Assembly: GCF_037975245.1 (NCBI RefSeq)
Contig: NC_092582.1
Coordinates: 11,200,001-11,264,000, forward strand
Length of the DNA stretch: 64,000 bases
Direction of reading: 5' to 3'
DNA from: Apostichopus japonicus
Lineage: Eukaryota > Echinodermata > Holothuroidea > Aspidochirotida > Stichopodidae
Position 1 is the stretch's first letter. Each line of letters opens with the position of its first letter. The notes under the pieces were generated by a model. That model was not told the origin of the DNA. It saw only the letters and a list, made by a program, of their open reading frames with translations, and did no database searches. This document shows, piece by piece, positions 6,201 through 56,200 of the stretch. The position numbers and the translations under genes are program-made.

Positions 6201-9200
6201 GGTTGAATTTAGTATGAGAGCTTGTGCTGCTTGAGTGTGGAACAGAATGCCTACAGCTTGCTGAAGATTGGAGTATGCAAAAGATATTGTCAGATCCCAA
6301 CTGGAAGGAAAAGGTTCAGCCTTCCTTTAAAGTATTGATTTGTAGTTGGTTCCCGGTATCCTGCAGATTTCATGAAATATTGATGAGTATTACTAATATG
6401 AAGATTGGAATTGATCAAACAAAATTGACTCTGGTTGATATTGTTTATAACGTATCTATCGTTGCTCTCCACACAGATACACTGAGCATTCGACTGTAGG
6501 CATTGCTCAGCAGTGGGATCAACTGGACCAACTTGGAATGAGGATGCAGCACAATCTAGAACAACAGATACAGGCCCGGTAAGTCCCCCACCCTCCAGGG
6601 TGTTTATAGGCAGAAAAGTGGTTGAGGTGAGGATTGGTGGGTTCGGAGTGTTTGGTCAGGTGGTAAAGATATCAATGGCTGGCTGTAGTATTCCTATTCA
6701 TTGTAATAGCGATGGGAGTCCTTTAACCACAAGAGGAAAATGCCATTTGTGTGCAGAATTATGTTTTGTTGACTTGAAATAGTTGAAAAAAGAAAAGGAA
6801 GGCATTGATAGAATTCCATTTATTTCTCTCCTCGCTCCTTCCCACCCAACCCCAATTCCCCCTCACCCCTCCCCCACCTTCCATCTCCATTTCAACTTTA
6901 ATGTACATTCATAATTAAGTTTCCCACCAAAAAACAACTTGAAATGAAAGAACTGTGTCATAGAAACATCTAAGTTTATGATGATCTATGATGTACCAAA
7001 GTAGTTGTCATTTGGTACACAGTGTCAGGGTCAAGTACTGTATTCCACAACCTCAGATATCCCTAGTCGAGTGCCATCAAGTCTGCTAACAGAATCAAAA
7101 TAAATATGAAGATTGAATTAAATGTTTTTTATTCTCTTCTTCAATAGCAACATGACTGGTGTGAGTGAAGAATCACTGAAGGAATTCAGTATGATGTTCA
7201 AGTAAGTCAATTTTATTTTTATTTTTCGTATTCCCTTCTTATCTAATCAACCATTTTACCATTCAGGTGGTTGCTAGAAGTTAATACTTTTTAACTTTTA
7301 GCTTGTTAAAAGGAATTCCAGTAAGCATCTGTCCAGTTTCAGATCTCAACACCTCACTAGATAAAAAAAAAGTTTAATTGTAAGATATTTGTGCCATATT
7401 CTTCATGCAAAGATTCCATACTTTTGTAGACACTTTTCATTTATTCAACAAACATACAGATTTCTGAAATTAATAGGTCACTTTTGTTATTATTTCTATC
7501 AGGCATTTCGACAAAGACAAGAGTGGCAAACTGGACCACCCAGAGTTCAAGTCCTGTCTGCGGTCCCTGGGTTACGATCTCCCTATGGTCGAGGAGGGCC
7601 AGGATGACCCAGAGTTCCAAGCCATATTGGATGCTGTCGATCCCAACAGGTAAGGAGAGGTTTCAACTCTCCCTTTGAAGTAGCTGCTGAGAGGTGTTTG
7701 CCAATATCCAGCAAGTTTAAAGGAGCATTAGTCATATGAGGATTGGACTTTATCAATGTTAGACACTCTATAAGATTTCCTCGCTGAATGAATGTGAATT
7801 AGTATGTAATTCATAATTCTGATGGATTCTTTGAAACTACGCACCCGTTTTAAAGGAGCATTGCTTATATTAGGATTGAACTTTATCAATGTTAGACACT
7901 CTATAAGATTTCCTCGCTGAATGAATGTGAATTAGTATGTAATTCATAATTCTGATGGATTCTTTGAAACTACGCACCCGTTTTAAAGGAGCATTGCTTA
8001 TATTAGGATTGAACTTTATCAATGTTAGACACTATAAGATTTCCTCGCTGAATGAATGTGAATTAGTATGTAATTCATAATTCTGATGGATTCTTTGAAA
8101 CTACACACCCGTTTTAAAGGAGCATTGCTTATATTAGGATTGAACTTTATCAATGTTAGACACTCTCTAAGATTTCCTCGCTGAATGAATGTGAATTAGT
8201 ATGTAATTCATGATTCTGATGGATTCTATGAAACTACACACCCGTTTTAAAGGAGCATTGCTTATATTAGGATTGGACTTTATCAATGTTAGACACTCTC
8301 TAAGATTTCCTCGCTGAATGAATGTGAATTAGTATGTAATTCATAATTCTGATGGATTCTTTGAAACTACGCACCCGTTTTAAAGGAGCATTGCTTATAT
8401 TAGGATTGAACTTTATCAATGTTAGACACTCTCTAAGATTTCCTCGCTGAATGAATGTGAATTAGTATGTAATTCATAATTCTGATGGATTCTATGAAAC
8501 TACACATCCCTGTCAATAAAGTGGAAATTGAATAGTTTAAACGGTTTTAACTCTTTGTCTCAAAGTAAAACTTGACTAGTCAAGCTAATGAATGGGGTTA
8601 CTGTTATTGGATAGTTTTACCAAATGGTATCGCAAAATTTACCGAACAAGAAATCATAATCTACTTTGGAAAAAGACATCGCATTGATTTCTGTTATCTC
8701 AAGTTATTCGCTGATGGAGACATTTCAGACTTGAGAGTTTCCAATTCAAAACTAAAAAAATGTAACAAAAACTGGACTTCTTTTGGCTTTTGTAATGAGT
8801 GCATTGTCCTGGCTTGAGAAAACAGTCAACAGCAATGATGAACAGAACTGTCTTCTGTGAATTTGTCACAAGCTAGCGTAAACATGGATTGGCCAGTTAA
8901 TGTTCTGTGGCCAAACAGAACCTAGTGGATGAATTAGTTGCTGCAATATAAAGTTGTTCCATGAACAAAATGTGTGTAGGGTTTGATGTCAAAATATTTG
9001 AAGCTAACAGTCCAAGATAAATAAAACACAATTACATTGCAAATGTTCATTTCAGATTGATTTGACTTTGGTGATTCCATAATAATGAAGAAACAAGAAA
9101 TGAGAATAGAAATAAGTCTGTTAGTATCTAATATATATCATCTTGTTATAACATGGTTATTTTTTTCTTCACCCAGTTCACAATTCTATCAGTTCTTACA

Positions 9201-10651
9201 CTATATTTTCTCTGATTTGTTGTCTTTTCTTTAAATACAGGGATGGTTTCGTCTCTCTGCAAGAGTACATGTCCTTCATGATCAGTCGAGAGACAGAGAA
9301 TGTTTCCTCTCGTGATGAGATTGAGAAGGCCTTCAAGGCGCTCAGCTCCGAAGGCAAACTTTTCGTCACCAAGCAAGAACTTTACGCAGTAAGTATCCAA
9401 GTCTGCCAAGCGCTATTGTACACTGCACTATACCGTACATTACTATAATATACCTACTACACTATACCACACTGCAGTACTACATTATACTATAGTATAA
9501 TATACTACACTGTACCATTGTACACTATACCACATAACACTATATTATACGACACTATACCACACTACTAAATTATACCATACTACACGATTGTACACTA
9601 TATCATTGGAGTATGCTATGTGAAGCTATATGAATGCATCATAGTAGTATTATATTATAGCAGAATCCTGTACTAAAAATGTAATTTACTATGCTATGCT
9701 AAACTATACTCTACTATGTTAGATCATACTACACCGTACAACTGTACTATATGGTACTATAGTATACTACTCTGCACAGTCCTACACTATACTGTAGCAC
9801 GAAGTGTGTTATAGAAACATGTTATATTTGTAATATATGCACTAAAAGGTAACATTCCATACTATGCAGTGTTCACTACACTTCATTATACAACACCTAA
9901 TTGTATTCTGGTCATTTGTTTGGTCAATTGCTCGTTGATTGCATGCAAAATCCGCTCTATTCCACTCTATGAAATAGAACCATGGGTTATACTTTTTTGG
10001 TAGCAATTTTTCCAATGGTAAGAGAGCAGAGAAACCTGTCTGTTCAAAACAATCTGTTGCATGAGTGCATTTTACCCATCTTAATATAATATGTTGTATA
10101 AAACAAATAATGAATGGTTTCCATTCGTGCAATAGTGCAAATATTTCATTCGTTGAAAGATGTTATTTGTTCCATTCAACGAGGCGAACATTCAACTCAT
10201 TTCAACTCATGAAATATTTGCACTATTGCACTCCTAACCATTCATTATTTGTATACTATAATATACTACACTGCACAGTCTTACACTTAATACTGTAGCA
10301 CGAAGTGTGTTATATGAACATGTTATATTTGTCATGCACTTTAAGGTAAAATTCCATACTATGCAGTTTTAACTACACTTCACTTTGTGATATTGTTATA
10401 TAACAATTATAGTACAATGAATTCCATGCTACTCGTTTATTGTTTCATTTAATTGTCATATACTCCCCCTGTATTATAATCATAACACAACCCTACAATA
10501 ACTTCCAATCTATACCTCCCTCCAGAATATGCCAACCAAGCTGGCCGAGTACTGCATTCTCAACATGCATCCGTTCAAGGATGGCAAGGGGCGGGAGCTT
10601 CCCAACGCCTTGGACTATGTGGAGTTCACCAACCGTATATTTCAGAATTAG
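259..10651 (+). CDS. SPTAN1: Alpha-spectrin (non-erythroid type), 3' portion
   Basis: This is the C-terminal ~527 residues of alpha-spectrin, the actin-crosslinking membrane-skeleton protein that pairs with beta-spectrin. Exons: 259-418, 905-1118, 1747-1819, 2070-2186, 2718-2833, 3544-3720, 5487-5541, 5876-5970, 6477-6578, 7148-7201, 7503-7649, 9241-9388 and 10526-10651 (TAG). Every exon has AG/GT borders and all phases agree; the total is 1584 nt. The first nine encode triple-helical spectrin repeats, with the typical repeat-start Trp (for example [13 protein letters not shown]). The last three encode the calmodulin-like EF domain. Key matches are [20 protein letters not shown]-like and [15 protein letters not shown]. 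The first exon starts mid-protein, so the 5' part (actin-proximal repeats, SH3) lies left of the window. Identification is by recall of the family, and is very secure. Confidence 0.97.
1195..1410 (+). repeat. AT-rich minisatellite in a spectrin intron
   Basis: About a dozen imperfect tandem units built on TATTCATATGATGTTTGTA and TATTCATATTATTTTGTA (15-18 bp) fill part of the intron between the exons ending at 1118 and starting at 1747. The open reading frame across it (repeated MMLYIH-type peptide) is a by-product of the repeat. No coding role is suggested. Confidence 0.85.
4798..4852 (+). repeat. G-rich intronic tract with quadruplex potential
   Basis: At least six runs of three to seven G separated by one to three bases lie on the + strand of the long spectrin intron 3721-5486. 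The pattern meets the simple criterion for intramolecular G-quadruplex formation. The rest of that intron shows no coding or RNA feature that I can recognise. Confidence 0.6.
7716..8507 (+). repeat. 133-bp tandem repeat, six copies, in a spectrin intron
   Basis: The unit begins TTTAAAGGAGCATTGCTTAT and ends with GATTCTTTGAAACTACGCAC. Unit starts fall near 7716, 7848, 7981, 8112, 8245 and 8378, giving a 133-bp period with one 131-bp unit. Copies differ by only a few bases (ACGCACCC or ACACACCC; TATAAG or TCTAAG; TTTGAAA or TATGAAA), so the array is young or homogenised. The first unit is the most diverged. It lies in the 1.6-kb intron between the two EF-hand exons. Confidence 0.95.
9410..9830 (+). 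repeat. Degenerate ACTATAC-type low-complexity repeat
   Basis: A stretch dominated by variants of CACTATAC, TACACTA and ACTATAGTA follows the spectrin exon ending at 9388. Similar sequence reappears at 10250-10300. It looks like a decayed short tandem repeat, with no coding potential. Confidence 0.7.
9771..10384 (+). repeat. ~115-bp direct repeats flanking an inverted repeat
   Basis: Segments 9771-9888 and 10270-10384 are ~85-90% identical (CTGCACAGTC, then GTAGCACGAAGTGTGTTATA, then CCATACTATGCAG). Between them an inverted repeat pairs 10103-10148 with 10210-10252, with a core such as GCAATAGTGCAAATATTTCA. A duplicated flank around a hairpin suggests a foldback element or a duplication with an insertion. 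It lies in the last spectrin intron. Confidence 0.75.
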
Positions 10652-13681: not shown

Positions 13682-16600
13682 CTACTCTGTCTTGGAATAG
13701 CGTCTCATCTTCCAAGTCTTGTATTTCGGCAAGTCAAAGTACGAGCTGATCATCTCCTGACCTGAAAATAAAAGCTTTGATTATTAGTGATTTAAATTTA
13801 TACTCCAAATTCTAGATCATGGCATTCTACTCATCGGGCGTCGCTAGGCTTCCTTTAAGGGGCCTCGATGCTTTTCTAGAGGGCAAACAGAACCTATTTT
13901 TTCTAAAGGGGGAGGGGCGACAGAAAAATATTGGGAGGCTTAGCCACTCCCTGGCTACACCACTGATTTCCGTCTATTTCTGAAAATTTCTCTCGCTATC
14001 TAAATATGCTTCAAATGCTGAAAACTGGTTTGTTTGTAACATTAATGTCTCAATTCATGGGAAACTCGCGAATGCTGGTTACTTCTCTAGACAATTATTA
14101 TTAATACTAGGCTCAATGTAAGGCATTTTCACACTATATGTGTGTAGTCTGCTTAGCATATAACAATCGGGACTAAATTCAGTATTCTCATTCACCTTTA
14201 TGTCCATAAATACCAGACATTTGCACATTGTTGGTCAAGAGTTAAAGTTGTAGTGACCGCACTGCAAGCGAGCCTATATATTCCCTCTCGCAAAGTGGAA
14301 CAGCCTACTTATTTTGTTTATAGACATTCTGTCGCCCAACTTTCTTGCTTATCTCCAATCCCATTTATAGTAAACTTGAACAAAGAGGACCAGTGTCCAA
14401 CGAGAGAAAGTTTTGGGGTCATAAGTTCAAGTGTAGAGCGACATATTTTTATCAGTCACTTCGTTCATGGAATCGGTCAGCGAAGGTCGTTCCCTAAGCC
14501 GTAATACTACTTTATAACTACAATATATACCATTGCCTACACTACAGCGATAGCTGGCTAAAAAGGCCGATACTTCACATATTTTTCGTATATTCTTCGG
14601 GAATCCACCGGACATTTATGTGTGGGATGTAGCAATGCAACCCACCAATTACTAGCGGATTCAGTGATACATTTATTCATTTACAAGGACTTTTATATAT
14701 GCGGATCTATCCTGGAACTGACAGTTCAAGTTCCCTGGACCGACGCAAGGAGGGTTAGACTAGACAGAATAATTATTAGAGGTTAGTAGTATTTATTATT
14801 ATTATTTACAAGTCCTCTAAATTGGTGACCCCGACGTGATAGTTCAATTCTTCCTTGTGTTTTTATCAGGATATTGACTGTGTGTACACGAGCAGTTCAG
14901 CCAGTAAAGTATGTGTAGTCACATGACATTTCATAATTTAACTACGGTAGCTTATATACTCGCTTAGAATATCGGTCAAACCCGGCATGAACATTCATTT
15001 TCTATTCGTGGCGGATTCTCGTTCATATTCATTCGAGCGTTATTCATTACCAGCGAGTTACGACATAAACATAGACTATATAATTAAACGGGGAGCTACA
15101 GTCCAAGATTTATTATCACCGACATTATCCAGGCTCCGACATTATATCAGTGATAGTTGGGTAATAGTTAAAGTAGCTGCAGGCATCAACAATCTCACAG
15201 AATTTTCTAGTCGGGACTCCAGGGGAAAGCGCGTCCTCAAACCATCTCGCGTAACATCGCATGAGCTTTTCAACGAGTTAGAACGTTTCAAACATAGCGT
15301 ACTCGCCACACACCCCAAGTCTATCGTATCATTCGCCACTATTCCACCTGCGTCGTTCTTGAAATTCCAACAGTATAGGAACTTACGATCGCCCATTTTC
15401 ACGGCAGCCGAACTATCTACATTCCAACATCAGCACAATATAACAATTGACGCCATCAATCGGCAAATTAAGGAGTACAATCGTAACGCACCGAACATCA
15501 TTCAGCCTTGGAATTTGTCTTGGCACACATCTATCCGCAAAGCCGACAAACGCCGATCTCGCTCCGGTCGTCCACTGCGTAGAATTCGAAACAATTTCAC
15601 ACACTTATATGACGGTCTACACGCGATTTCATCGATCAAGCGTAAGTGGCATATAGAGCTGGTCAAATCGTTCAGCAAGGAATTACAAGCACTTCAAGAG
15701 TTAAATTAGGCGTGTATATCCTTAATATTCTATAACATTTCATGTAACTAAATTGTTTATGTCATCATGACCGATCCAGAGAAAAAAACCGAAACCCAGT
15801 CAAGACTCGCTGCAGTTAGTTTGAAACTACCTCCCTTTTGGCCGAACGATCCGACCATATGGTTCGCACAGGTCGAAGCGCAGTTTACCACGCGTGGCAT
15901 TACGTCAGAGCAGACGCAATACGCATACGTTGTCGCTTCCCTTCAGCCCGAGATAGCACAGGAAGTTAGGGATTTATTGTTGCACCCGCCCGCCAAACAA
16001 CCGTATTCTACATTGAAGTCCGAGCTAATTAAGCGAACAAGTGCGTCGGAACAAAGGCGGCTACATCAACTACTCATATCAGAGGAACTCGGCGATCGCA
16101 AACCGTCACAACTATTACGGCGCATGCGCCAGCTTCTCGGGGATAGCAAATTAGATGACAATTTTCTCCGCCAGCTGTTCTTACAGCGACTACCGACTAA
16201 TGTGCAGCTTATTCTAGCAACCACTAGCGAGACAATCGACGTTGAGCAACTTGCAGTCATTGCAGACAAAATCATGGAAGTAACCCCGTCTGTCCATCAG
16301 GTCTCGGCCATTGTACCTACCCCTACGGTTAATTCTGTCAATGCACCTTCTACAGAGATGGCAGAATTGAGGGAAATGGTCGCAGCTCTCACACTGAAAG
16401 TTGAGGCCCTAGGTAGACAGCAAGGTAACCGAACCAATAGGAGCAGATCTAAACCGAGGGATGGTAAGTCATCCCAACGACGAACAAGGTCTCCGTCTTC
16501 TGAGCGTTCCCATGCTGGATCTCAGTGTTGGTACCACTGGCAATATGGTGCTGCAGCGGAGAAAGGTACACCACCATGTAACTTTCAGACATCCGGCAAC

Positions 16601-19600
16601 CAAAACAAGTCCCCAAACTCAACAGCCAGCGATTAGGAACGACGAATCGTCATGGCGCATCATCCAGCAGTCGTTTATTTTATATCACTGACCGCCGGAC
16701 AGGTTCCAGATTTTTAGTTGACACCGGGGCTGAGGTGAGCGTCTTTCCTGCGACAAAAGTGGAAAAAGGGAAACAGCCATTGTTTACCTTAAATGCCGCA
16801 AACCAGACACCCATCTCTGCTTTGGTGAGAGGTCATTCACACTCGACATTGGTCTACGACGCGTTTATCGCTGGGTCTTCATACTAGCCGATGTAGCATC
16901 GCCATTACTAGGTGCTGATTTCCTCGCTCACTTTTCATTAGCCGTGGACGTCAAACATCGCAAGCTAATCGATCTCGAAACATCGCTCAGCGTAAACGTG
17001 CGCACTTCAACAGACACGTCGCCGAGTCCGTCTTATCGTATCTCCAATCTACAATCGCAGTATCACGCGTTACTCGACACATATCCGGACATCACCAGAC
17101 CATGCTACAAGGAAACGGCAATCAAGCATAACATTACCCATCACATTATTACAAAGGGTACCCCTGTATTCGCACGGCCTCGTAGATTAGTGTCGGACAA
17201 ATATCGGATTGCGAAAGACGAATTCGAACACATGATCCAACTAGGAATCGTCAGGCCCTCAGAGAGCTGTTGGTCTTCACCCCTTCACATGGTTCCTAAG
17301 AAGTCTGGTGACTGGCGTCCATGTGGTGACTACCGGGCCCTCAACAATTCAACCGTGCCCGATAGGTACCCCATACCACATATTCATGACTTTACATCTT
17401 CTCTCCATGGTAAAACCATTTTCTCCAAGATTGACCTTGTAAGAGCTTATCATCAGATACCTGTCGAGCCAGATGACGTTCCCAAAACTGCCATCACCAC
17501 CCCATTTGGCTTGTTCGAATTTGTGAGAATGCCATTCGGTCTCAGGAATAGTGCCCAGACATTTCAGCGTTTCATCGACCAAGTATTACGAGGCCTCCCA
17601 TTCGTATATGCGTACATCGATGACCTGCTCATCGCTAGTTCTTCACATGAAGAGCACTACGATCATCTGCGACAACTCTTCGATCGCCTTCATGAACACG
17701 GAATAGTAATCAATCCTTCGAAGAGCATTTTCGGCGTTTCATCTCTGGATTTTCTAGGACATCACGTCGATGCAAGTGGCATTACTCCATTAACGGACAA
17801 AGTCAAAGCAATCACTGACTTTCCGCCACCTGATACACTCCGCAAGTTACGAGAGTTTCTGGGGCTTGTTAATTGCTATAGACGGTTCATTCCAAACTGT
17901 GCTATCATCATTCAACCTCTGACTGATCTCTTACGAACTAATCTTAAGAACATGCCTATCAACTTGACGGATATTCAGTTACAGGCATTTTCGAATGTCA
18001 AAGCTTCACTTGCACAATCTACACTTCTCAATCATCTACACCCTACCGCCCAGCTCTGTCTGATGGTGGACGCTTCGGACGTAGCTGTAGGTGGGGTTCT
18101 CCAGCAGTTAGTGGGAGGTAACTGGGAGCCAATCGCATTCTTTTCGAAGCGCCTACAGAAAGCGGAAACTCGTTACAGCACATTCGGTCGCGAGTTATTG
18201 GCTGTATATCTCACCATTCGCTACTTTCGTCATCTCCTAGAAGGTAGACAATTTCACGTCTTATCAGATCATAAGCCACTTATATATTCATTCTTGACTA
18301 GTCCTGACAAGTACTCACCACGAGAAATTCGTCATTTGGATTTCGTCTCACAGTTTACTACGGACATACGTCATATCAAAGGTAAAGATAACGTTGTAGC
18401 AGATGCCTTATCTCGAAGCACAATCAACACAGTCAGTGCTTCGAATATAGATTTTAAAGCAATATCAGCGGAACAGGAAGTCGACGAAGAGCTCAGCAAG
18501 CTACGTCAGTCGTCGACTTTGCAATTCAAAGAAGTTCCGTTACCGTCATCTCAAGGTACCATCACTTGTGACATCTCTACAGGCACATCCAGGCCATACG
18601 TGCCACAAAGATTTCGTCGTGCAGTTTTCGACTCCCTGCATTCTTTATCTCATCCAGGCATTCGGGCAACACAACATCTCATCACTAAACGTTTCGTGTG
18701 GCCCGGTATCAATCGAGACGTTCGTGAATGGACTCGCTCATGCATCAGGTGTCAGCAGGCCAAGGTACATCGCCACAACGTGGCACCGGTAGGTACCTTC
18801 GTAACACCTAATGCACGTTTTGAACACATTCATATTGACATTGTAGGACCACTTCCACCATCAAACGGATATACGTACCTTCTTACTATAGTTGATCGTT
18901 TCTCTCGATGGCCGGAAGCTGTACCTATCAGTGACATCACAGCTGAAACAGTAGCCAAGGCATTCATTCAGCGATGGGTCGCTATATTTGGAGTACCATC
19001 TGTAATCACCACAGACAGGGGATCGCAATTTGAATCATCACTATTCAGAGAGCTCAGTCGCATGCTCGGTTCGAAACGCATTCGCACAACTTCATACCAT
19101 CCTGTAGCGAACGGTTTAGTAGAGCGCTTTCATCGACAGCTAAAAGCCTCGCTCAAAGCGCAGCCGGATTCTACAAACTGGACAGAAGCACTTCCGCTTG
19201 CACTCCTGGGTATCCGCGCCACGGTTAAAGCCGACATTAACTGCTCCGCTGCAGAATTAGTTTTTGGTTCTCCACTTACATTACCATGCGAACTAGTAAC
19301 ACCCATTGATACTCCTGCCCTGACGGACCCGAGCAAATATTCAGATCGCTTAAAGCAGCATATGGCAAATCTACGTCCAGCAATAACTAGGCCGTCACGT
19401 CACACCAGCCAGTTAGACAAGAATCTACAAACTTGTACACATGTGTGGGTTCGCACTGACGCAGTTCGTAAGTCGCTACTGTCCCCGTACAAAGGACCAT
19501 ATCGTGTAATTAGCAAAGGCAATAAGTTTTTCAAGCTAGATTACATCACCAGGGAAGAAATTGTTAGTATAGATCGCTTGAAGGTAGCATACTTAGATAA

Positions 19601-22600
19601 AGATTTCAGTGACTAACTACTATCAGATCAATCATCACGACCTAGTGAGCCACCTTCTAGGAAGCCACCATCTGGTAAGCCTCCAGTACGTTCATTGCCT
19701 ACGCCTATTCTTCGTAAACAAAGTAATATTTCTTCTCCGCCTCAAGTTAATAGACCAGATAGAGTAACTCGTAGTGGCCGACATGTTCATTGGCCCAACA
19801 GATTTATCCATGAAGTTAGTAGCTAGTCATTTTAGCTACGCAGTTCTAATCGATTGCCTTCCATTATTATTAGCAATCTAGGGGGGAGCTAGATGTAGTG
19901 ACCGCACTGCAAGCGAGCCTATATATTCCCTCTCGCAAAGTGGAACAGCCTACTTATTTTGTTTATAGACATTCTGTCGCCCAACTTTCTTGCTTATCTC
20001 CACTCCCATTTATAGTAAACTTGAACAAAGAGGACCAGTGTCCAACGAGAGAAAGTTTTGGGGTCATAAGTTCAAGTGTAGAGCGACATATTTTTATCAG
20101 TCACTTCGTTCATGGAATCGGTCAGCGAAGGTCGTTCCCTAAGCCGTAATACTACTTTATAACTACAATATATACCATTGCCTACACTACAGCGATAGCT
20201 GGCTAAAAAGGCCGATACTTCACATATTTTTCGTACATTCTTCGGGAATCCACCGGACATTTATGTGTGGGATGTAGCAATGCAACCCACCAATTACTAG
20301 CGGATTCAGTGATACATTTATTCATTTACAAGGATTTTTATATATGCGGATCTATCCTGGAACTGACAGTTCAAGTTCCCTGGACCGACGCAAGGAGGGT
20401 TAGACTAGACAGAATAATTATTAGAGGTTAGTAGTATTTATTATTATTATTTACAAGACCTCTAAAAAGTCATAGGAGATTGAAGTAGTTAATCGAGTGT
20501 TTTGTGGGAAGTGACGTAAACCCAGCTACTTTAAGTCTCTGGTGACGAAAAATATGAATGATCAAAACCCACCTTCTTCGCTCAGTTCTAGTGGTGCTTT
20601 GAACTTCACAACGGATGGCATCATTATTGTTTCTAGACTATCAAAGAGCTGAAAATTCATACAAAGAAATAAAGAGAATTAATGATAAAATAGAAAATAA
20701 CTTTATAGAGAATTGGATTGTCGACAACTAGAACGGTGAGAATATGCAGATGTGTTAGGTTTGATTTGAACAATATGCAGGGCAGCCTCCTTGTAAATTA
20801 CTTTTTCTAGTTTATCACGAGTTTGCATGAAAGAAATAAGTATACGTAAGAAAAGCTGCAAGTTGCTTGGAGGTAATTACTAAGATGTTGAGGTGAAAAA
20901 CATTATGTTGGGGCATTTACCGTGTGGATGATTGGCTACATAGCCTATGAAATATAATAACAGACTAATAATAGGCTACATATTATAAAATAAGGGAAAC
21001 ATCCTCTTGTAACATGAGGTGGTAAAGGTTGCACATGGTGGGTTATAAAGCGATATTTTCAATCGTTTTGTTGTCCTATTTCACATGGTAGACGTCACTG
21101 TACACAAATCACAACATTAAAAACAACAATAATGATAATAATTGATATTTATTAATTAATTGGTATCAGACATCAGATTAATAAGAACCACAAAACGGAA
21201 TCCAAACTGCTAAACAATTGTTTACAAGTGCCGAGACTATTATTAGCTTGAACGAGATCAGAACTGTCATGGTGACCAAAGAACCCTCGTGATTTGCTAA
21301 ACTGAGATATCGTATAATATCAAGTATTAAGTAAGTGCGCATGATCCCCGTTAATTTCAGGATGAAGAAGAATTTAACCTACAAGTTGACCCTTTTCGTT
21401 GCCCATGACGTTGTTACCCATTACATGTATAATGGAGTCCTGATAGCTGACTTTACTCATGCGTCTACCGACAGATTCCCAAAACCTGAAAGAAAAAATA
21501 AACGAAAACATTAAGATAATAGGTAGTCTTGGACGACAACCATCGATGTACCTTTTAAACAAAAACATTCTTTTTTTTCATGGGAAACGACCAATTGTAA
21601 TTTCGCTTTGTATATTCATGACGTATGTCTAGCCCTGTTAATGCTGTAGTAAAATAAGCTGATGTAAACAGTTACACCAGATCAGAAGAAAGACACATTG
21701 CATCTGTGCATGGGGTAGAAATACCCCTGAGACAAATAGTCATAAATATGTGTTTAATTAAAAAATAAACCGTTTGTTTGGACATTGCATCGACAAATTA
21801 GGGTTGTCATCCGACTAAATCATAATTTCAAGGAACTACATCATATTTCGATGATTATTCCTTTCAGATTTTCATCTAGTTTACAATTTAATAACTGTTT
21901 TGAGACAGGCGAATAAAGTGTTACGGTATTGAAATATAAACAGATTAGTCCAATTGCCATTACAATTGACTGTACTTAATGTTGTTAATTGCGAAAAACA
22001 CATTTTTAAAGCAATTTTGTGTTACTTTTAACATACCTAACTTGATCGGCCTCTGATTCTTTCTTTAATTTTGGTACCGTTAGCGCCCTCTTTTTCAACA
22101 GATACAAAACTCCCGGTCCTCCCTGCAAAGAAGGAAGATAAAAGGTAAACACTTAATTTGAAACTTAATTCAATGCTAATAAGTACGCATGCTCAAAATG
22201 ACGTCATACTTAGGGATAACAAATACTGGTAAAGTATTATTCCTTCGGCATTATTTGGTTGTGAGGGCCCGACTGATCCTGAAGTGAATTGAACCTGGCT
22301 CATATACGAGATCAATCGTATTTGTAAGCAATGATCCGAACTGCCCGAGTAGCTATGATTGAGTTAAGTGTGAGCCCGTAAACAGTCTTGACCGAGTCGT
22401 GGTTTCTGGTCTCGTGTGTTGAAGGCTAATGTACCCCTGTCTGACGAGGCGGGGGGGGGGTAAGAGGTAAGTGGGGTCCGAGGTGTCTGATGCTTCCTTA
22501 CCTGAGAAACAAAACATATCGACCTAGCTCTTGATCCAGGTTTGTAAGCTTCTAAATTCAACTCTAACATTTTGATTAAATTCTCGAAGGTGTCTTTAGT

Positions 22601-31524: not shown

Positions 31525-34155
31525 CGTATAAATAAGATAATAACAAGTAGAAATGTAGTGGAAATATATATATTTTTTAATTATCTTGGTAATTTTCTGC
31601 AAAACAAAAGTTGCCACTTCTGTTGATTAAATATCTAGTTGATTATAAAATCATCCCAGTCCGAACGTGACATCGGTGTGTTTCCAACCGTATTTCCAAC
31701 CGTGTGTAGAAATCCATTCCGCGAATTAAACACTGTAACGCACCTCATGAAGAAAAAGACAGAGATGAATAGAACTCAGAGGAGAGCACTAAACAACCAC
31801 GAAATGTGTCGATATTTGATGGTAACGTTTAGCACCTCAAATAAATTTCTATTTAAATGTTTGAATGTAACGCTCGGGGTTATTTATGAGGAATTGGGGG
31901 GAAAGTTCGTGTCATTTCCTTAATGACTGGGCGCTGTAAACGAAGCTTCCGACCAATTAACTCAAAACGGATAATATGGTTTGTAACTTACTACACTACA
32001 GGTCGCACGGTCACGTCTTTTTTCGATCTCTGTAAATCGGTAACCAAGGCGCTTCCCGCTGAAGAGGTGTTCTCTTAGTTTGGTTTGTACACCCAACATT
32101 CTTTTCATACGTAACAATAGCCCTCAATAGGATCTTGGCTATTGTCCCGAAGGGAATAAAAAAAAATCAATAAGCAGTCTCACCTAACAATATGAATGTA
32201 TAGGACCTACTGCAACAATGTAACCAAACTGGGTCTTTATTAGTTGGAGTGCGAGTATGTAAACAAACTATTTATGCTTGAAGAGGATGGCTGCTGCCAA
32301 ATATATTCATTTAGGTTCATTAAGTGTAATCAGTTTGTCGATAGGCTACTGTCAACATAACTAACGGTTCAAAAAGTAATTGTGTTAAATGTTTACGAAG
32401 CTCGTGATTGAGTGACGTTATATTACGTTTAGTACCGAACATTTAAACAAAGGCGGGGGGGGGGGGGGGTAGCCAAATATATTTCTTTTAAATGTTTGTA
32501 CGAATCGCTCGGGACTATTTATCAGAAATTGTGGAACAGTTCGTGTCATTCCTTATTGACAGAGAACTGTTTCTTAGAGAAGGCTGATGACGATTAACCT
32601 ACAGGTCATAAATGAAGTATAGTATATAGTCCATCACTCTAGTTTTTCAAGAGTACTAAACTGAAGGTGCTGTCCATCTAAACTGACTCCTAGACATTGA
32701 GAATTTTGTTCAATTTAAAGATATGATTTGATTTTAACCACATTATGTGACGTTTCGGCCTCATTTGATCGAGAGGATTACAGATTCAGTTTAGTTCAGT
32801 TACAAAGCTAGGCCTCTTACCATTAACGTTACATTGCTGACTTATGCATCGGGGTCATTTCACATATTGAGCACATTTTGAAAATTCCTACAAAATGGTT
32901 CCTCCATCGGTTTTACTTATAGTAGACAATTATTACACAGCTTTGAGTAACAGTCATACGGTAGCATGATTGGCTGATTTCATTTTTCTTTAAAGAGAAA
33001 AGTCATCCGAGAGATAGAGAGCCCGGGCACGAAATCCAAACAAGTTGGTCTACTAGCTGTTAACCCTATCCCCCCTTTCATCGGAACTCTGAATGGTCAG
33101 AATGAAAACTCCTGATCGAGCAGTGCAAGGCACGGCTCCTGCATGTTATTAGAAATTTTTGAGTAAAACAGATAATAAAATTTGGGTAAGTCGATTGAAG
33201 AAAAAGACGAGCAGCACACGTCATTTGGAAGTTTTAAACTGAGGAGAAATGGAACCTATACTTAGTAAAAAATAATAGGAGGTTGCTCCATGCAGACCTG
33301 GCAAATCGGAATTCTTACCGTAATTGGTGAATGATTAGTTATTGTACTTCATAGCCTATACTCGGTTTATGAAATATAGCTATGCAAATTAAATGCATGA
33401 CATTTCAGTTATTTCGTGTATACCCCTTTGTTAAAGTTACCCTAGCTCTTCCTTTGTATTTCAATAGGTCCTGTTCATTTAGAGGAGTTACCTAATTTCG
33501 TCTTCGGTGCACCTCTTCTTTCAACACCTCTGGGGGTATTCAAAAGTAACTATACGAAAGCAGATTCTCACATTAGCCTGGCGTTAATGACGTACTGGAC
33601 TTGCCTAACTCAACACTCGTCAATATCTGTAAACAATGATTGGAAAGAAATAACCAGGAAAAATCTAAGGATAATTCTGGAACCCTGAAGTTTATGTCGT
33701 TACTGATAACCTTTAAAGTTTTCTGCATAACGACACATTCATTTTTATTAGGGGGGGGGGGGGGGTGGCGGAAGGGTCTTTTGCTGCGTTGCCCTATTTC
33801 GTGCTTCTGCACCAGTCCTCGCTTTTGGTACCGTCTTTTTTCACTTTCATGTTCTCACGCACGCACGAGGTTATGCATTTTGAGCACAGTGATTGCTATT
33901 CATAATTTAGTACAATGTACCGTCATCACAGATGTGTATTATATGTTGCGAAAGTTGGGCACTTTTTGATATGTGGACTGATACGGGCGGCTCGCCTGTA
34001 GGGGCGTAGCCTGAGATTAGATGGAATGGGAGATATGTTAAAGACGGGGACAAAAACAGACAATTAACCGGATTCTAATAAGTATAACTTCCGTATTGAT
34101 AATTTACAACCCAAATCATGATTCCTTTTTGTCTGCCTTTCATTTTGTCTCCTAG
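31525..34155. other. Spacer between divergent genes
   Basis: No coding exon is recognised on either strand. It should contain the promoter of the - strand IQ-motif gene near 31.5-32.5 kb, but I see no convincing core promoter element. On the - strand at 32740-32790, a GGCCGAAACGTCAC-type ending resembles a degenerate hammerhead-like element end. A run of ~17 G occurs near 32455 and another near 33750. Confidence 0.5.
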
Positions 34156-34881
34156 AAATCCAAATCTTCCAACATCACAAGCTTCTACATATTTTCATCG
34201 CCACTTTGGACCCAGCTTTGAATATGAAAATAGTGACAGGTGGCCAGCGTATACAAACACACATCAAAATATTGTCTACTTGACTTCCAAGCCAAGAATT
34301 CGAGATTTTTATCGAGTACACGAAATTTCACTTTGGGAACATCTTATCCCCCAATTGGAGTCCAAGTTGAGTATTGACGAGCCGACGTCCAGAATCCCTC
34401 TTGATACAACAACCAGAGATACAACGACACCCGGAACACGCCAATCCACTTTGACGGATTCGAATTTATATTTGCATATTTCGACACAGCCAGCCATTAC
34501 GGACTATGGGACCACCACAGTTAGCGCGGGAATTATTAACAATACACAAAGATATGGATATAAAATAGAACTAACCATAGTACTCGCTGCGGGTGGGTTA
34601 CTCTTATTAATCAACCTTATCATTCTTGGTGTCATTTATTACCTTCGAGATCGAGGTTAGCCGCGAAATATTTGGCACACTTAGAAGAAATCAAAAAGAA
34701 GAAAGCTAACGGACGAGGTTTTATGCAGACGACACCAGACAGCGGTATCGGTTTCGCGACATTACTAAACGCACAGAACGGGAAGGGTGCCAATAGCACG
34801 ATTGGAACAGGCAGCCATCAGTCCTCTAGAGATGCCACGATAAGAATCAATGAAGATGGAGATATTGAATTTGAAGTATAA
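34156..34881 (+). CDS. Neuroligin-like terminal exon (frame-broken)
   Basis: The exon opens after the acceptor TTTTGTCTCCTAG and starts in the last part of the cholinesterase-like domain. NPNLP and KPRIRDFYRVHEISLWEHLI match the neuroligin GDPNQP and KPRVRDHYRATKVAFW region. A Thr-rich stalk (TTTRDTTTPGTRQST) follows, then a transmembrane helix (IELTIVLAAGG...IILGVIYYL) and, by family, a cytoplasmic tail. The frame stops at TAG 34658-34660, just after YYLRDRG. The tail resumes in another frame (LAHLEEIKKKK to 34881) and ends in GDIEFEV, a plausible class II PDZ ligand. The break may be a sequencing indel, a real mutation, or a 29-nt GT-AG segment (34656-34684) too short for a normal intron. 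No upstream exons are visible, so it may be a fragment or pseudogene. Confidence 0.82.
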
Positions 34882-37370: not shown

Positions 37371-38911
37371 TCAACGTTTATGGCCGTAAACGAAGAAAGT
37401 GAAGTCCATACCGCGATGTAATTGCGATGTTACTTTCACCTCGATACAATTTTCGCCTGGACCACCTGCTATCCGTTGTGCATTCCCCCCTGTGTTATCG
37501 TCCCAGTTGTCGTATACTAACACACCGGTAATCGTCTCATTGGGTTTCTTGTGGTACTGAAAGGTGTACACCTTCCTCTGCAGGAACATACCGTACTCTC
37601 GACATCTATCTCTATATAGCACGAAATCCTCTACACTATTGTCTCCTAACACTACATTGTGTCGACCGGTCATTTTGGCTTTCTTGGTGATACTGGCATG
37701 GTTACGTTTCATAGCCAGTGTGATTTTACGGGGAATAACCTAACGTAATATTCGAGAGAGAGAGAGAAAAAAGAAGAAATTCTATTATCACTTTGAAATT
37801 GAAAAATTGTAGACGTAATAAGTTAATAGGGTCTATACATATATGTTCATTCTGTATAGCAATATTATAATCAATACAGAAATGTAAACGATTTGGTAAC
37901 ACCTATATGCATCAGGCGACCGCCAAAGATTTAAATCTGACCCGCGAACACAAAAAACCTGCTCACAATCTTGCAGAATATGTATGCTTGCCTTAACGGC
38001 TTTGAGCTTGATCGTGTCCCTATAGCTCCCCTTTGAGAAGTTTTGGTTCCAAAATGGAGGTTGCTTAGATGCAAAATGGGGCTACAGTTTGCAACTTTTG
38101 AATCAATGTTGAAGAATTTCTACTGTTTAGGTTGTACCGCACATACACGGTATATAATAAATTATTAATGATACGTGGGCGGGGGGGACCCTGATTTTCA
38201 TGTAGATTGATAACTCCCATACAATAATGCACATACCTGTAAAATGTATACGATATAGCGCGTTTAGAGGGATTACCCCTTCCCCACCCTTCATACATGT
38301 AAATTGTGTGTGGTGCATGGTGAACTAAATGTATACCCACCACTCGCGACAGGTTCGAGTAAGTTTCATAAATTTCTATCATTTTGTATTGGAAATAACG
38401 GATGAAAGTATGCTGAACGTTTAAGAAATATACTTCAAACAAATTATATTTCTTCATCTTCCAAAATTTGCATATAAATAATAGTATATACAGATGGATG
38501 TATTGCAATGAATATATCAAAACGAAGAGTGTGACGTAAGTCTATAGCTTGAAAAGTCATTTTTAAGAATGTTTACCTGTGGGATCGGTTTTTTGCTCTC
38601 TGAAAGAACGATACAAGGAAGAGAATTAAAAGTTTCCAATGACGTAATAAGTGTAATTGAAATATGTTACACACCAATCTCAAAAGCCGCATTTATTCGA
38701 ATTCTGTAATCGGATTTAATATATATATATCTAATTATTTATACATGCAAATATCAATCGAATATAGCATATATCTTTCATTAAATGTAGAAGATTCCTT
38801 ATAATTTTACTATAACGATGTATACGTTTATTTCGAATTAGAATTATCTGTAAAGTTCGAATGAGATATATCAATAAAATATACATTATGCATTTACGAT
38901 ATATCTTATTC

Positions 38912-38942
<31 letters not shown>

Positions 38943-39927
38943 TGCATAGAATGTAAATCACCTTGCATAACAAATACTGCTAAATCAGCTCTGTCAACCT
39001 CCGTCAGAGCTTTGGCTAAACAGCCAATGGTTGGTGGTTGCGTAGATTGTCGCTTCCATTGTAGCAGTGTCTGATATTTGATTTCTTTGCTCTTTCCTCT
39101 GTTGTCTCGTTCAATGTCATCAAGGATTCCTTCAGTCAGTCCTAGTCTTCTTCCAAGGAATCTCCACTCCACAATCTTTCCTGCCAAATCCTGAAAATTC
39201 ATTGAAATAATTGGCATGAAACACATTTCAAACACACACATATAGGTGTTTTTTACATTCAGACCGATGACCCCATTGTTTTTTCCATTGTTCAAATCCA
39301 TGTACACAAACCTTAACAATACCCCCATAACAATAAAATTCTTCTGAAGACGTGGTAATTCTTTTGAAATGACGTCTGAGGACCTGGAATTCCTTAGTCA
39401 GAATACAGAACAAGAGCACACGCACCCATACTAACACACCCATTATATAGGACTATACATATGCAGCGAGGTCTGGAGGGGAAGGGACATCATGTAATGC
39501 CACATGCACTCTCAGTTTATCGTCGTAACTCTAACTTCTGGAACAAAGGAGGGGGAAGGGGAGTGTGGCTATTAGGATACCCAATATGTTCAAAGGGCGT
39601 GTTTTCGTAAGAATATCAACAGAAAATCAATCTGACGGTATTTTGGTATCGAGAAACTATAATCCCTCACCATGCTACGTTCACACTTGTAAGTTCCCTT
39701 GTACCAAGAGTGTTTCATGCTTACAGTAAGTTACGTGTCCATGCTCTACGGTTCTCAACGGAACACATTCTATACGTCATATAGTTGGGTGACAGAATTA
39801 ACTAAAGAAGATGAGAAATGAGCGATAAAGAAAATAACTTGAGGAAACGAGGAATCAAATTTCAAACCAGAAGAAGGGATTCAGAAGCTAGTGTTTTGTC
39901 TTGGTCTTGCACATCGTTACTTGCCAT
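37371..39927 (-). CDS. Death domain-MBF2-like fusion protein
   Basis: Four exons (high to low): 39927-39868, 39190-38962, 38599-38577 (23-nt microexon) and 37739-37371. Phases 0, 1 and 0 match exactly, giving 226 aa. Residues 21-96 form a Death domain: LAGKIVEWRFLGRRLGL, then DDIERD, TLLQWKRQS and LAKALTEVDRADLAVFV, with the six-helix spacing and core Trp. The microexon adds the linker ESKKPIPQ. Residues ~105-226 match the MBF2 (DUF-type, insect salivary/secreted) family: ETITGVLVYDNWDDNTGGN, RIAGGPGENC, then TSQLHRGMDFTFFVYG. There is no signal peptide, so the product is probably intracellular, unlike secreted MBF2 proteins. A long pyrimidine tract precedes the last acceptor. Start context AAAATGG is good. 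Inferred role: Death-domain adaptor or receptor-like sensor. Function is unknown. Confidence 0.8.
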
Positions 39928-42900
39928 TTTCCTATATTTACATCAGCTGTGACCTGAGGGAGAGAAATGGATAAAGAATGGAACAAATCCCATTGACTGC
40001 TTTCCTATTTTGTCCCCCAAAAACTATTAAAAAAAAAACTGTGCTGCTTTCTTTTTCATAAAACAAATTCCCGCCATTGGGGGTGGGGGTTTAGGTAACC
40101 TGTCACACTTTTATAATGAGAAATGTGAATTGTTAATGATATAAAATGCCCTATTTGTTGAAAATTAACAAAACAAATGTGATTAAAATAATGACCTATT
40201 ATTGAAAACAAATCATTAACTGCATAGGACCTGCAGTGGTACGAAAATCACAGAAGATAAATGTTTGAGGTCAGTTTTTGTGTCGCTCCTCAATGAAAGC
40301 CAAAAAAGTTCATCTTTTATAACAGATCGACTTGGGGTATCACATGCACGAAGTCAGATCTACATTGTAAGCCAATATATATATTTATATAGGGCTACAT
40401 ATAAACCTGGTACAGTTAGGCAGGTTAGATGGTAATGTAATTATCTGACTTACCATGTAAAACAATAGATGCCTCTGCCGTGACGTGATTGGATCATGGA
40501 AGTACGTATAGGCCTACACACAGTACCGTGGAACTCCCTTGTTGTTGTCCACAGTATAACAATCGGAGTTCTGCGCCAAAAATGTCCTAACAAGCTGGTT
40601 CAGATCAAGGAGTAAAAATAAATCGAGCAGAATATTCTGACAAAATATAGTAGCGACTTGTGTCCAAAATAAAACATAAATCAATCAAACGTAACGAATA
40701 TACAGTCAAATGAAAGTCATTTCTATATATGTATGGCAACGAGTAATGTGTGTATGTATAGGCATACAACGGGTAGCAATACAATAGATTGTTGTCTGCG
40801 TTCTAGTATGAAGTCATCTGGTCATAGTGCATGTATTCAGCTATGTGTAGCATAAATTACATTTTGCTATTATTGGACTTTGACATCTCACTCATCTTCA
40901 TAGATATATAATAGTGGCAAAGAAAAAGTAAACAAGAAAGTGTTTATAAATGATAGATGAGTCACCGAGACGACTTTTTAGTTTCACATTTAGCCTAAAT
41001 CGGTCAACGTGGGAATCAATGAAGACGACCGTATTACTCCTCCTTCTGAATCTTTGATTGAAAATTGTAAGCAAGAAGTATCTTTATAGGCGACAGTACC
41101 GCCAGTTCTCCACTGCTGTTTATCATGACTTTTGGCGGTAATTGTACATTATTTGATTAATGTCCATGGTCTCTTTAGAAAGTATATTTAATTGTCCATT
41201 GGGACTCAAAGGATATTTTACCTCACAGTTGTACCAGAGTGCCAAATTTAAGACATAAAGAAATGTGCATTACATTTGAGATTCATGTACTGTGTAAGCT
41301 TAGATCTCTTTTTTATTATTCTCCTGCTTTCAATGTAGACTTTTCTATTTCAAAAACATGTAATTCACAAGATCATGAAAATATAATTAACATTCTCCTT
41401 ATAATAAAACTCACAGTTTCAACTTGGATGCCAGAACAGTTAATGAGTGAAACACCCTTGATATTATCTTCTAAATTCAAATATATATAGTTCTAAATGC
41501 CCTTCATCATCTCGTATCGTTTCCCTCTTTTTATTCGCGTAATTGTCTTTACAAGCTTTACGCTAACCGATTTTACCCTTTAATGATAAAATAAATATAG
41601 AAATATAGAAACAGTTCATGCATCGATGTTACCTAGACTATACCCAGGCGCGTATCCAGGGGGGGGCGTTGGGGGCGCGCGTCCCCCGGGTAAGAAAAAG
41701 AGGGGAGAAAAAAAAGAGAAGAAAAAAGGGAAAAAAGAGGGGAAAAAAGAGGAGGGGGAGAGGAAGGAAGGGAAAAGAAAAAGAAGAAAGAGAGAAAAAG
41801 GAGAAAAGGAGGGAGTAAAAGAAAAACGCGAAGACAACGGGAAGAGAACGAGGAACAGTAACATCATTATAACGCTGATCCCTATTATATACACAGGGTA
41901 GCCAGTGACGAATCGAGGATTTCGGAAGGGGCGTGCACCTCACCCTACCCCTTACACCGACAACTCCATTTTTGACGTTTCCATTTTTCCTCTCTCACTA
42001 ATGTATCTATATATATATATATATACTACATATGGTCTATCATAACGCGCGTGTGTGTATGGACGCCATAAACAATTGTACAATTGTGCTATGAAACCAA
42101 CTGTGGCTGGTCTCGAACTCCACCGAGTCGTCGGGAACATGACGCATTTCGGGAAGGGGGCGACCACCCCCCTCCCCCTGAGCATATTTTTTTTATGATA
42201 TCGCTAGTAATTTCAAAATAGAAAATGCTTAGATACAACTAACAAGGCCTGGGAAGTGTCATTTCCAGCGATCTAAGAGGCATTTTCGGCCAAAATTTTC
42301 TTGTACGCTTCGCGCCAACTAATGGTGGCGCTACGCTTAGATAGTTTGCCTACAGACTTCGCCCTCCCTTGGCAAATTCCTCGCTAAGCGCCTGTTCGAA
42401 TTTGTAAAGCAAACAGCAGATATCAAATCATATAAATGAGCATGGAAATGGCGTCCCAGGATGAACAGCTTCAAAACTGTCTGTGTGTGTAGTCAAAGGC
42501 GAAGGAGACCAATTTGATTTGGGGAGCTGTAACGACTTGCCCGAAAAATTTAACCAATATTTTCCGCGCGCTCTGCGCGCGTTCAACATGTTAATGTCAA
42601 TATCATATAAGCAAGCATTGGTTATTACATCGCATGCCATCGTGTACTGTACGGTCCGTGAAAGTTGCGCAATACACCGCGGGATGCCCATCTAAACAAC
42701 GAAATGTCTTAAGTAGATGGAGAAAAAGCATGGAGGTCCAATTGTGTCAAAACTCTCTTTACATTAGTAATGGCTAATTAGTCGGCCAAGCTTAGAACTT
42801 TATTTTAATTACCAAGGAGATGATTTTTAATTAATTTCCTTTAGATGTAGCTATGTATTGCAATTTATTTTCTTTCAGTAGGTGCCCGAAAAATTCTCAG

Positions 42901-53200: not shown

Positions 53201-56200
53201 AGAATTTTGTGTAAGTTGAAACATTCTGTGTTTGTTGAAGGTTGTTCCATATTGAAGCCTTAATATTATGTCATTCGTTAGCATAAAACTCATCATAATT
53301 TGCTGCCATATTTATGCACGTTATTATCGTTATTAAATTACAATTTCGTCACAGTTAATTTGCTCATTCATGATTCTCTTAATGTGTCATTATTCTCAAG
53401 AATCCAGACCTTTAAAAATACACCAACGAAAAACTGCTGATTTCATTTCCTCATGTTTTTTTTTAATCCATCAGATTGTCTCTGTGATATCTACGGAACC
53501 GTCAACCCAAATGTTTGTGATGTAGAGGTTGCTCAGCGTTGCACATGTAAGGAGGGCCATACGGGGGCAGACTGCTCTCACTGCCTGGATGACTTCTACA
53601 GACCCAGTCAAGAGGAAGTCTGCAAGGCATGCAAATGCAACTCTCAGGGATCAGACTCGACCTGTGATAGGTATGAAATACGGCGCTTCATTGATTCGAG
53701 GCTTAATCTAATTTTGAACAGAGGCATGGTGATTTTATCTTGAGGCAGAGCTGGGGGGGGGGCAAGGGGGGGGAGGAGGGAGAAACTCAAGACAAAACGG
53801 AGTAATTTTAAAAGGGCACAGCTATGATAGTGCTGCTTCCCATATATTTCTTACAGTGTATCGAAGTAACACTGAAGATGAAAAGATCTAGGAATCCAAA
53901 CTTAAGCTTAAATATTTACTATTGAATTGTACCAATATTAAATGCCAGGTGCTTCAATTGTTATTTAAGTTATTTTCCTTGTAATATAATGTTTGTTATA
54001 TAACTGTTGTTGGTTTTCATTCACTTTCAATTGTTACCTAATTAGCTAAGTTTATATAGTCCCATAGGGGCTTTAATTGACAGAACTCTACAGTTAGAAG
54101 TACAACATATGTCAGTGCATGCTATGCTCCAATTTTGGAAATGTTATGCCTGTATGTTAAGGTCACCATATTTTTTAAGTAGGAATCTGGGACAAAATGT
54201 TGAAGGTGGAATGTATGGCTTGAGAAAGGGGAAGGGTTTCCCCTTCCCATTTGAGAAATATGTTCTAGTATTATGGTATTAGTCTTTCTTGGTATTCTCA
54301 CTTTAATTAGGCTAACTTCCTGAGGTTTTGACTATTAATGGTCATCTGGACTGATCCCAAATATGCTAGAAATCAAATAATAATCATGCACTCAATCATG
54401 CGCCAACTTCAACATGGACGTATTTTTAGTGCTGGCCCGGCCACCCTCAAAAGGATTTTTTCCTCACTGAAACATTGAATAGTCAAAATTAACACTTCTC
54501 AATATCTGAAAATAATTTGAAGAATCAGAGCCAGGAAATTATATATAGTGTAACTCTTTCCTCTATGAGTAGCGCCGACCAGCCGATTCCTAAGATGTAG
54601 TATTGTAATTGGCCAGAGAATGAAGATGAACACAAAATAAATCCAGAGAGGTAATGGTATTTTTAACAGCTATATATTGAAAGGAACAGCGATATATTGA
54701 AAGGAAACTTCTTACAGTAAGGTTATGTGTCTTGTACTGGAAATGTGGTACAAACTTGAGGCTACTTGGCCCTGAAGCCTACCATCAAGAGCGTTTAGTC
54801 CAACAGCAACCAGAGTAGACTGGCCTGTCCCTCCCAGGTAATGCATTTTATATAAATCCCTTAACATTACGTGGAAATACCGCATGTATACAAATGATGA
54901 ACTTTACCCTTACAACTTAGCTTAAGCCATAATACACAAATACTACAGTGTATTCCTACCATCCCCAAACAATTGTACTCCTTTACAGAGATGAATATGA
55001 TCACATGAGTATCCCTAGAAAATATCACATGTTACATCACAATCCCAGGATAAGCCTGATACCACATGCTGATCCATAGGAACAGCCCCAAAAGCCATAA
55101 TCTGCCAACAATTACAACTGGTTTACTTTATGCCAGGAGAGATAACCCCTATATAATTCCAAGGGGATTTAACTACCACAATGGTTCCACACCGTCCACA
55201 CAGAACTCCCATTGCTCCGCAATACAATATTACAATTTTTTCAAAACTTTTAAGCAGTTTTTAGCACATGTGTCAATATTTGGGGTCCAAATTACAAACA
55301 AAACTAAGATAAGATACAATAACAGCTATTTTTTTTTTTTAACCTTAATGTAATAATGATTGATGAAGAACTTACAGTGTATTGTAATTTTGAACATGAA
55401 TTTTGCAAATTAAAAATGTACAGTAGCGCATATCTATTCCCTTTGCATAAGTTCCTGTTTTGTAACAATTGTAGAGATCAAAACCATATTTAAAGTGTAC
55501 TTTTCAAGTTATTATTTTTCTCTAAATTGATTAGTCATAATTTGTTAGTTCCTGTTGTAATGTGTTGCACTTTGTACAGTACATGGAACATTGTGTTGAG
55601 ACGTTGTTCCCCGGCTCAACTTGTAAGATAAAGTACAATATACAAGTAGAACAAGGATATCAAAAGTTATTTGCAAGTAGCTGTTATCATGTTATTCACT
55701 TAATTTGGAGGAATGGTTCATTTACGATGTTTGTGTGTAACTCGTAGGAAAATTTTGCTAGTTGTTGTTAATGGCGTATTTGAATTCAAGGGGTGTCAAT
55801 ATCCCTGTTGACACACCCGTATTCTATTTTAGTAGGCATGACAATTTTCAAGAAAGAGCTCAACCAGGTGTGACAATTCTATCCCCTCCCATTCTAACCT
55901 TCCCCTCCCCCCAACTTGTTTTGAGTGCTTCAAAGTTACTTTCCCTAAACCCTTGGTTCTTCTTTTCATGCTTTCAAGGGGAAATTGTTGAACATACTGT
56001 AAGCAGTTTAATCACTCTAAAACCAAAATTACCAACTATGAAGTTCATGATAAGAAATATTAGAATCAACAATTTGCAAACCCCATTTCTATTATAGTAA
56101 ATAGACATTATTATTAAAAAAAACCCATTAAACTTGAAGCATATATACGTAGGACTGTCGGGGGGAGGGGGGGGTGGCAGGAGGCAGGAGTGATGGAGGG

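Follow-up and report, generated by a model that had tools for sequence, protein, structure and literature searches.

A Death domain joined to an MBF2 domain in a gene of the sea cucumber Apostichopus japonicus

Introduction

Proteins such as FADD, RIPK1 and PIDD have the Death fold in common but differ in the domain with which it is partnered. The MBF2 family, whose function is little known, was first described in silkworm, as a transcription regulator. Insect members include the salivary protein SschwMBF2, which has a putative signal peptide (PMC7092997), and Asilidin 11, of an MBF2 family found in venom (PMC6266666). Here we describe a gene that joins these two kinds of domain, on the minus strand of a 64,000-nucleotide stretch of the Apostichopus japonicus genome (contig C22:11200001-11264000; hereafter the window, and its gene the C22 copy). 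Its product shares the Death fold with the first group, but Pfam finds no DED, kinase or LRR in it. With the insect salivary and venom proteins it shares the MBF2 domain; these are small, and the sections of the two papers cited here mention no Death domain in them, whereas the window protein carries one.

A loosely comparable arrangement is the linkage of aerolysin domains to CARD or Death, mentioned in a review of natterins (PMC8402412, in part). No paper describing a Death-MBF2 pairing, and none linking MBF2 with echinoderms or sea cucumbers, was found in the literature searched, which covered few subscription papers. There, the papers found on the MBF2 domain were insect studies by title, and the two domains were mentioned together only in unrelated passages of a coral transcriptome study (PMC11639872, in the portion seen). 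The pairing itself is, however, already present in automatic annotation: six public proteins are annotated with both domains (P0002, P0003, P0004, P0006, P0043 and P0013). An earlier sequence-only reading of the window, which knew of no described protein with the pairing, thus holds for the papers found but not for the databases.

Gene structure and the C10 paralogue

Splicing and translation of the window DNA give four exons of 60 + 229 + 23 + 369 = 681 nucleotides (nt), encoding 226 residues and a stop codon. The exons join in phases 0, 1 and 0 with GT/AG at every border, exactly as the sequence-only reading had it. The features of the gene are as follows (window coordinates).

39868..39927, minus strand: exon 1, MASNDVQDQDKTLASESLLL, ending in phase 0; donor GTTTGAAA
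38962..39190, minus strand: exon 2, the Death exon, entered in phase 0 and left in phase 1; 85% identical to the C10 copy
38975..39169, minus strand: Pfam PF00531 Death match, residues 28-92; 35.2 bits, cut-off 22.6
38577..38599, minus strand: exon 3, a 23-nt microexon giving the linker ESKKPIPQ, phase 1 to phase 0; length and GT/AG sites as in C10
37371..37739, minus strand: exon 4, remainder of the linker, MBF2 domain and stop codon, from splicing, translation and Pfam
37383..37646, minus strand: Pfam PF15868 MBF2 match, residues 136-223; 60.3 bits, cut-off 25
37485..37511, minus strand: conserved acidic/glycine loop DNWDDNTGG of the MBF2 domain, from a 34-row alignment
38957..40424, minus strand: 5' cassette in common with a Death-LRAT locus on C11 (about 0.5 kb of upstream DNA, exon 1, intron 1 and Death exon), 85% identity
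37011..37016, minus strand: candidate AATAAA polyadenylation-type signal about 355 nt past the stop, read from the sequence

A paralogue lies on the minus strand of contig C10 (1342620-1345376), with exons of 63, 223, 23 and 372 nt including the stop, and with the same exon plan, phases and GT/AG sites. Its spliced translation equals the public protein P0004 letter for letter, and P0003, P0004 and window exon 1 start with a near-identical peptide. These observations bear on whether two separate genes, one for Death and one for MBF2, have been wrongly joined on paper. The four-exon join was read from genomic DNA alone, and the exon 1 donor, CTG/GTTTGA, is by eye a weak-looking GT site, although the C10 copy has the identical donor. 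Against such a mistake, the whole join is repeated in C10 and equals a public protein, the 23-nt microexon has been retained there together with its splice sites, and P0043 and Holothuria P0013, described below, show the two domains paired again; we regard the two-gene explanation as most improbable. The proposal of a single gene with both domains is thereby upheld, and we conclude that this is a real protein-coding gene of A. japonicus for a Death-MBF2 protein.

Comparison of the two copies also speaks to selection. Coding differences (51 of 672 sites) occur at the same level as intron differences (138 of 1853; intron identity 91-93%), and the ratio of nonsynonymous to synonymous substitution rates (Ka/Ks) in the Death exon is 0.95. 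Both features would suit a young, weakly constrained duplicate, in which the window copy keeps an open frame with little selected function. Other features do not: all four internal coding gaps are of 3 nt, compared with 7 of the 23 intron gaps in multiples of three; none of 5000 neutral simulations left the frame intact; GT/AG is kept at all splice sites of both copies; and Ka/Ks, 0.58 overall and 0.53 in the MBF2 exon, falls to 0.45 in the Pfam MBF2 part. This explanation is therefore unlikely in our view. The gap lengths, the simulations and the Death-exon Ka/Ks together indicate a frame that is maintained, with a Death exon that appears either weakly constrained at the amino-acid level or diversifying.

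Domains and predicted fold

Both domains of the window protein exceed their Pfam curated cut-offs, as the profile check proposed earlier had called for, and the MBF2 match covers the whole profile (positions 2-90 of 90). A scan at E up to 1 finds nothing else. The Death domain was found to have the six-helix bundle fold, and its top sequence match is RIPK1. For exon 4 alone, the predicted model comprises seven strands, with a mean predicted local distance difference test score (pLDDT) of 85.9. The sequence-only reading had begun the MBF2 domain at residue 105, whereas the Pfam match begins at 136. It had also placed between the domains an 8-residue linker, largely from the microexon; the microexon does give ESKKPIPQ, but the flexible linker appears longer than eight residues, since pLDDT is below 50 at residues 102-114 of the C10 protein and at residues 1-13 of exon 4.

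In the 34-row alignment, D77, D81, T83, G84 and G85 of an MBF2 loop are invariant, and W79 and position 82 are conserved in at least 90% of rows. By our own reading of the alignment this is a DxWDDxTGG-type loop, present in the window protein as DNWDDNTGG; position 82, usually D, is N.

Judged by hydropathy only, the window protein has neither the N-terminal signal peptide of secreted insect-type MBF2 proteins nor any signal-peptide-like or membrane stretch (maximum over 19 residues 0.99, at residue 77), in agreement with the earlier claim that a signal peptide is absent.

The fold predicted for the MBF2 exon resembles that of residues 1-111 of lufaxin (PDB 8eo2, 8eok, 8enu); sequence identity between the two is 12-13%, and the sequence profile does not recover lufaxin. 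Lufaxin, which binds C3b-B, comes from the saliva of a sand fly (PMC5583147, consulted in part).

Relatives in Apostichopus and Holothuria

Protein searches gave 11, 36 and 26 proteins under E thresholds of 1, 0.001 and 0.001. Precomputed Pfam annotation assigns both domains to P0002, P0003, P0004, P0006 and P0043 of A. japonicus and to P0013 of Holothuria leucospilota; rescans confirmed the pair in P0002, P0004, P0006, P0013 and P0043, and for P0003 it is that of the precomputed annotation. P0004, P0014 and P0043 are taken as RefSeq models, judging from their source labels. The BSL78 models P0002, P0003 and P0006 resemble the window protein in having Death and MBF2, with identities of 99% (P0002, BSL78_23459, over 91% of the query), 84% and 65%, but P0006 lacks the microexon peptide. 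The NCBI model P0004, from C10 (85%), shares the exon plan and phases as well. These four are named merely 'uncharacterized', 'hypothetical' or 'Death domain-containing'.

The search for the pairing in related genomes that the sequence-only reading had recommended succeeds with P0013; Holothuria and Apostichopus belong to separate families (Holothuriidae and Stichopodidae). P0013 has the C-terminal half of a Death domain (29.1 bits), a linker and a full MBF2 domain (73.6 bits) in common with the window protein; it differs in its longer, proline-rich linker, its 50% identity to exon 4 and a model without the N-terminal Death half. Despite the partial Death domain it is named 'putative salivary secreted peptide', which looks like a transfer from insect MBF2 proteins. 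An unnamed protein of 142 residues, P0007, is 61% identical to exon 4; because its first residues resemble a pyrimidine-rich acceptor, it may be the fourth exon of a gene of this type.

A receptor-type relative

The NCBI model P0043 (353 residues) has the same domain order as the window protein, Death (57-129, 64.8 bits) then MBF2 (262-350, 58 bits), but between them hydropathy rises to 3.17 (residues 171-189) and a Ser/Thr-rich stretch is present. Residues 15-353 map to C9:14203060-14214709; residues 1-14 fall outside the DNA examined, which implies a further 5' exon. Added in P0043 relative to the window gene are thus that exon, one of 45 nt, a transmembrane exon and Ser/Thr stalk exons of 63 nt. 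The preceding exon meets the Death exon in phase 0 and the Death exon ends in phase 1; the 45-nt exon runs from phase 1 to 1, the membrane exon from 1 to 0, and two 63-nt stalk exons from 0 to 0 (putatively so at the donor of the first), before an MBF2 exon that starts in phase 0. The window gene agrees with P0043 in phase on either side of the Death exon and where the MBF2 exon begins, and the change from phase 1 to 0 is made by the microexon in the former and by the membrane exon in the latter. The layout of P0043 is predicted to be that of a type II membrane receptor, with Death inside, a transmembrane helix, a mucin-like stalk and MBF2 outside.

Two membrane architectures were rejected for the window protein. 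A TNF-receptor-type death receptor does not fit, as there is no transmembrane stretch and Pfam, at E up to 1, gives no domain besides Death and MBF2. A type II receptor like P0043 does not fit either, as hydropathy is low and the transmembrane exon of P0043 has no match in the window at E up to 1.

A second C9 locus repeats the arrangement: its Death match is at 14007758 and its MBF2 exon at 14019692, together with a membrane-type exon (14012922) and exons of the stalk type. C9:14.00-14.36 Mb as a whole (loci L013, L016, L019, L024, L025, L028-L037) appears as a cluster of receptor-type Death-MBF2 loci with repeated stalk exons. It contains five Death and five MBF2 matches; of the latter, those near 14.32 and 14.35 Mb are broken across two frames.

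The MBF2 family in the genome

MBF2 had been characterised in the sequence-only reading as mainly an insect family. The A. japonicus genome, however, contains at least 25 matches to the family profile, all above the cut-off, and a coral (Oculina) protein also matches; a hand tally gives at least 18 on C7, 5 on C9, 1 on C10 and 1 in the window. The 18 on C7 lie at 17658768-18059119 and 19932828-19959520 (L001-L012, L014, L015, L017, L021-L023), mainly in a tandem cluster, and the domains of L022 and L023 are identical. Several C7 open frames start, by eye, with a small-hydrophobic stretch resembling that of coral proteins. No Death exon turned up in the 3-kb C7 MBF2 loci when they were searched by tblastn with Death sequences of the window type.

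A tree of 40 MBF2 rows was built from 23 of the 25 loci and 17 proteins. The five Death-linked rows group with L013, L016, P0007 and P0022 in a set of nine with support 91/88, within which P0013 branches first, followed by a division between C9 and C10/C22. The labelled rows do not fall on one side of a branch: three changes are required, and a single change sufficed in 0% of 200 bootstrap trees. This is partly explained by unlabelled rows, because a Death match lies 12 kb upstream of L016; for L013, P0007 and P0022 no Death match is known. It is plausible that the pairing arose once.

A shared 5' cassette

How was the window form of the fusion made? The window Death exon has 114 matches in its own genome at E up to 0.001. 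By hand count, 75 of these are on C12, mainly at 19.4-34.2 Mb, which would represent a very large expansion of Death genes on one contig. After the window itself the nearest are C10 (85%), C11:28263481 (79%) and C11:7765428 (61%). The second of these, L040, is taken as a Death-LRAT locus from its match to P0009 at exon 1 (100%) and the Death exon (98.7%); P0009 has a Death and an LRAT domain (33.1 bits, cut-off 24.3). Window positions 40424-38957 align with L040 over 1490 columns at 85% DNA identity, from about 0.5 kb upstream of the ATG through exon 1 and intron 1 to the end of the Death exon. The match ends 5 nt beyond the Death exon donor, although 1.5 kb further was compared. The 3' half of P0009 is LRAT, whereas that of the window protein is MBF2. 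At the other C11 locus, L041 (P0011), similarity of about 81% covers the Death exon and part of intron 1, and the match continues beyond the donor, for about 150 nt with C10 and 50 nt with C22; the break at the donor is therefore not found in every copy. With P0043, by contrast, the window protein shares 52% identity in MBF2 and only about 40% in Death.

These alignments are most simply read as one cassette (upstream DNA, exon 1, Death exon) joined to different 3' modules. The Death exon in it starts in phase 0 and ends in phase 1; in a crude scan of 30 Death loci, the donor listed first was of phase 1 in 20. Because close copies of the cassette lead to different 3' modules, exon shuffling probably made, or remade, the fusion in its window form. 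It would be a fairly recent case: one breakpoint lies at a splice donor, and 85% identity persists over the upstream DNA, intron 1 and the Death exon.

Proposed function

The account that we find best, and to which we give an even chance, is that the window protein is a soluble, cytosol-type Death-MBF2 adaptor or sensor of a holothurian Death-MBF2 family that includes the predicted receptor P0043. The MBF2 beta-sandwich would bind a partner protein, whether secreted, microbial or host; clustering of bound molecules would bring Death domains together; and the gathered Death domains would recruit downstream Death-domain partners, leading to signalling of the caspase or NF-kB type. P0043 would act across the membrane, and the window protein and its C10 twin, without anchor and stalk, would act in the cytosol or connect membrane receptors to effectors. 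The role of 'recruiter or sensor' suggested in the sequence-only reading is one that we also infer, and the membrane-receptor form P0043 strengthens it; that interpretation was right in kind and is now better grounded, its wording partly supported.

The main rival to an adaptor or sensor role is that the soluble C22 and C10 proteins are decoys, occupying Death partners or MBF2 ligands and so damping membrane receptors such as P0043. Both copies carry its domain pair minus the membrane and stalk exons, and its transmembrane exon is unmatched at E up to 1 within 20 kb around C10, as in the window. Their Death exons, however, are only 35-40% identical to that of P0043, compared with 79% between the window's and that of the Death-LRAT gene, so that the window Death domain may not share the partners of P0043. 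We consider decoys possible but doubtful.

An intracellular transcription regulator, with Death as a targeting or assembly part, is suggested by the Pfam family name, transcription activator MBF2, and by the coral transcriptome paper, which in the portion seen puts MBF2 among DNA-binding proteins (PMC11639872). SschwMBF2 and Asilidin 11, however, are described in the cited sections as salivary or venom proteins (PMC7092997, PMC6266666), and P0043 would place MBF2 outside the membrane; such a role is very unlikely.

More broadly, and tentatively, the adaptor or sensor account may extend to an undescribed innate sensing system of sea cucumbers, in which MBF2 would be the ligand-binding part of membrane (Death-transmembrane-stalk-MBF2) and cytosolic (Death-MBF2) signalling proteins. 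The cytosolic A. japonicus forms would have been built by shuffling the upstream-DNA-plus-Death cassette onto a new 3' module, and, as with lufaxin, what MBF2 binds may be a host protein of the complement or protease type. MBF2 gains here a physical link to a signalling domain, which makes its role testable as receptor binding, and Death-domain signalling is extended by a receptor layout not found in the literature searched.

Other features of the window

The remaining features are on the plus strand. Spectrin-repeat frames at 133-423 (22.5 bits, below the cut-off) and 820-1119 (47.8 bits, above it) and a Ca-insensitive EF-hand frame at 9152-9445 (27.5 bits, cut-off 27) probably belong to one spectrin-type gene. 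Long frames of a long terminal repeat (LTR)-type retroelement occupy 15752-19613, a 300-residue piece scoring 120.8 bits against the RVT_1 reverse transcriptase; near-identical frames at 14157-14501 and 19874-20146 may sit in its terminal repeats. An open frame of 185 residues at 34103-34657, without a Pfam match at E up to 0.01, has a transmembrane-like stretch at its end. A Laminin-type EGF frame lies at 53441-53740 (26.8 bits, cut-off 21).
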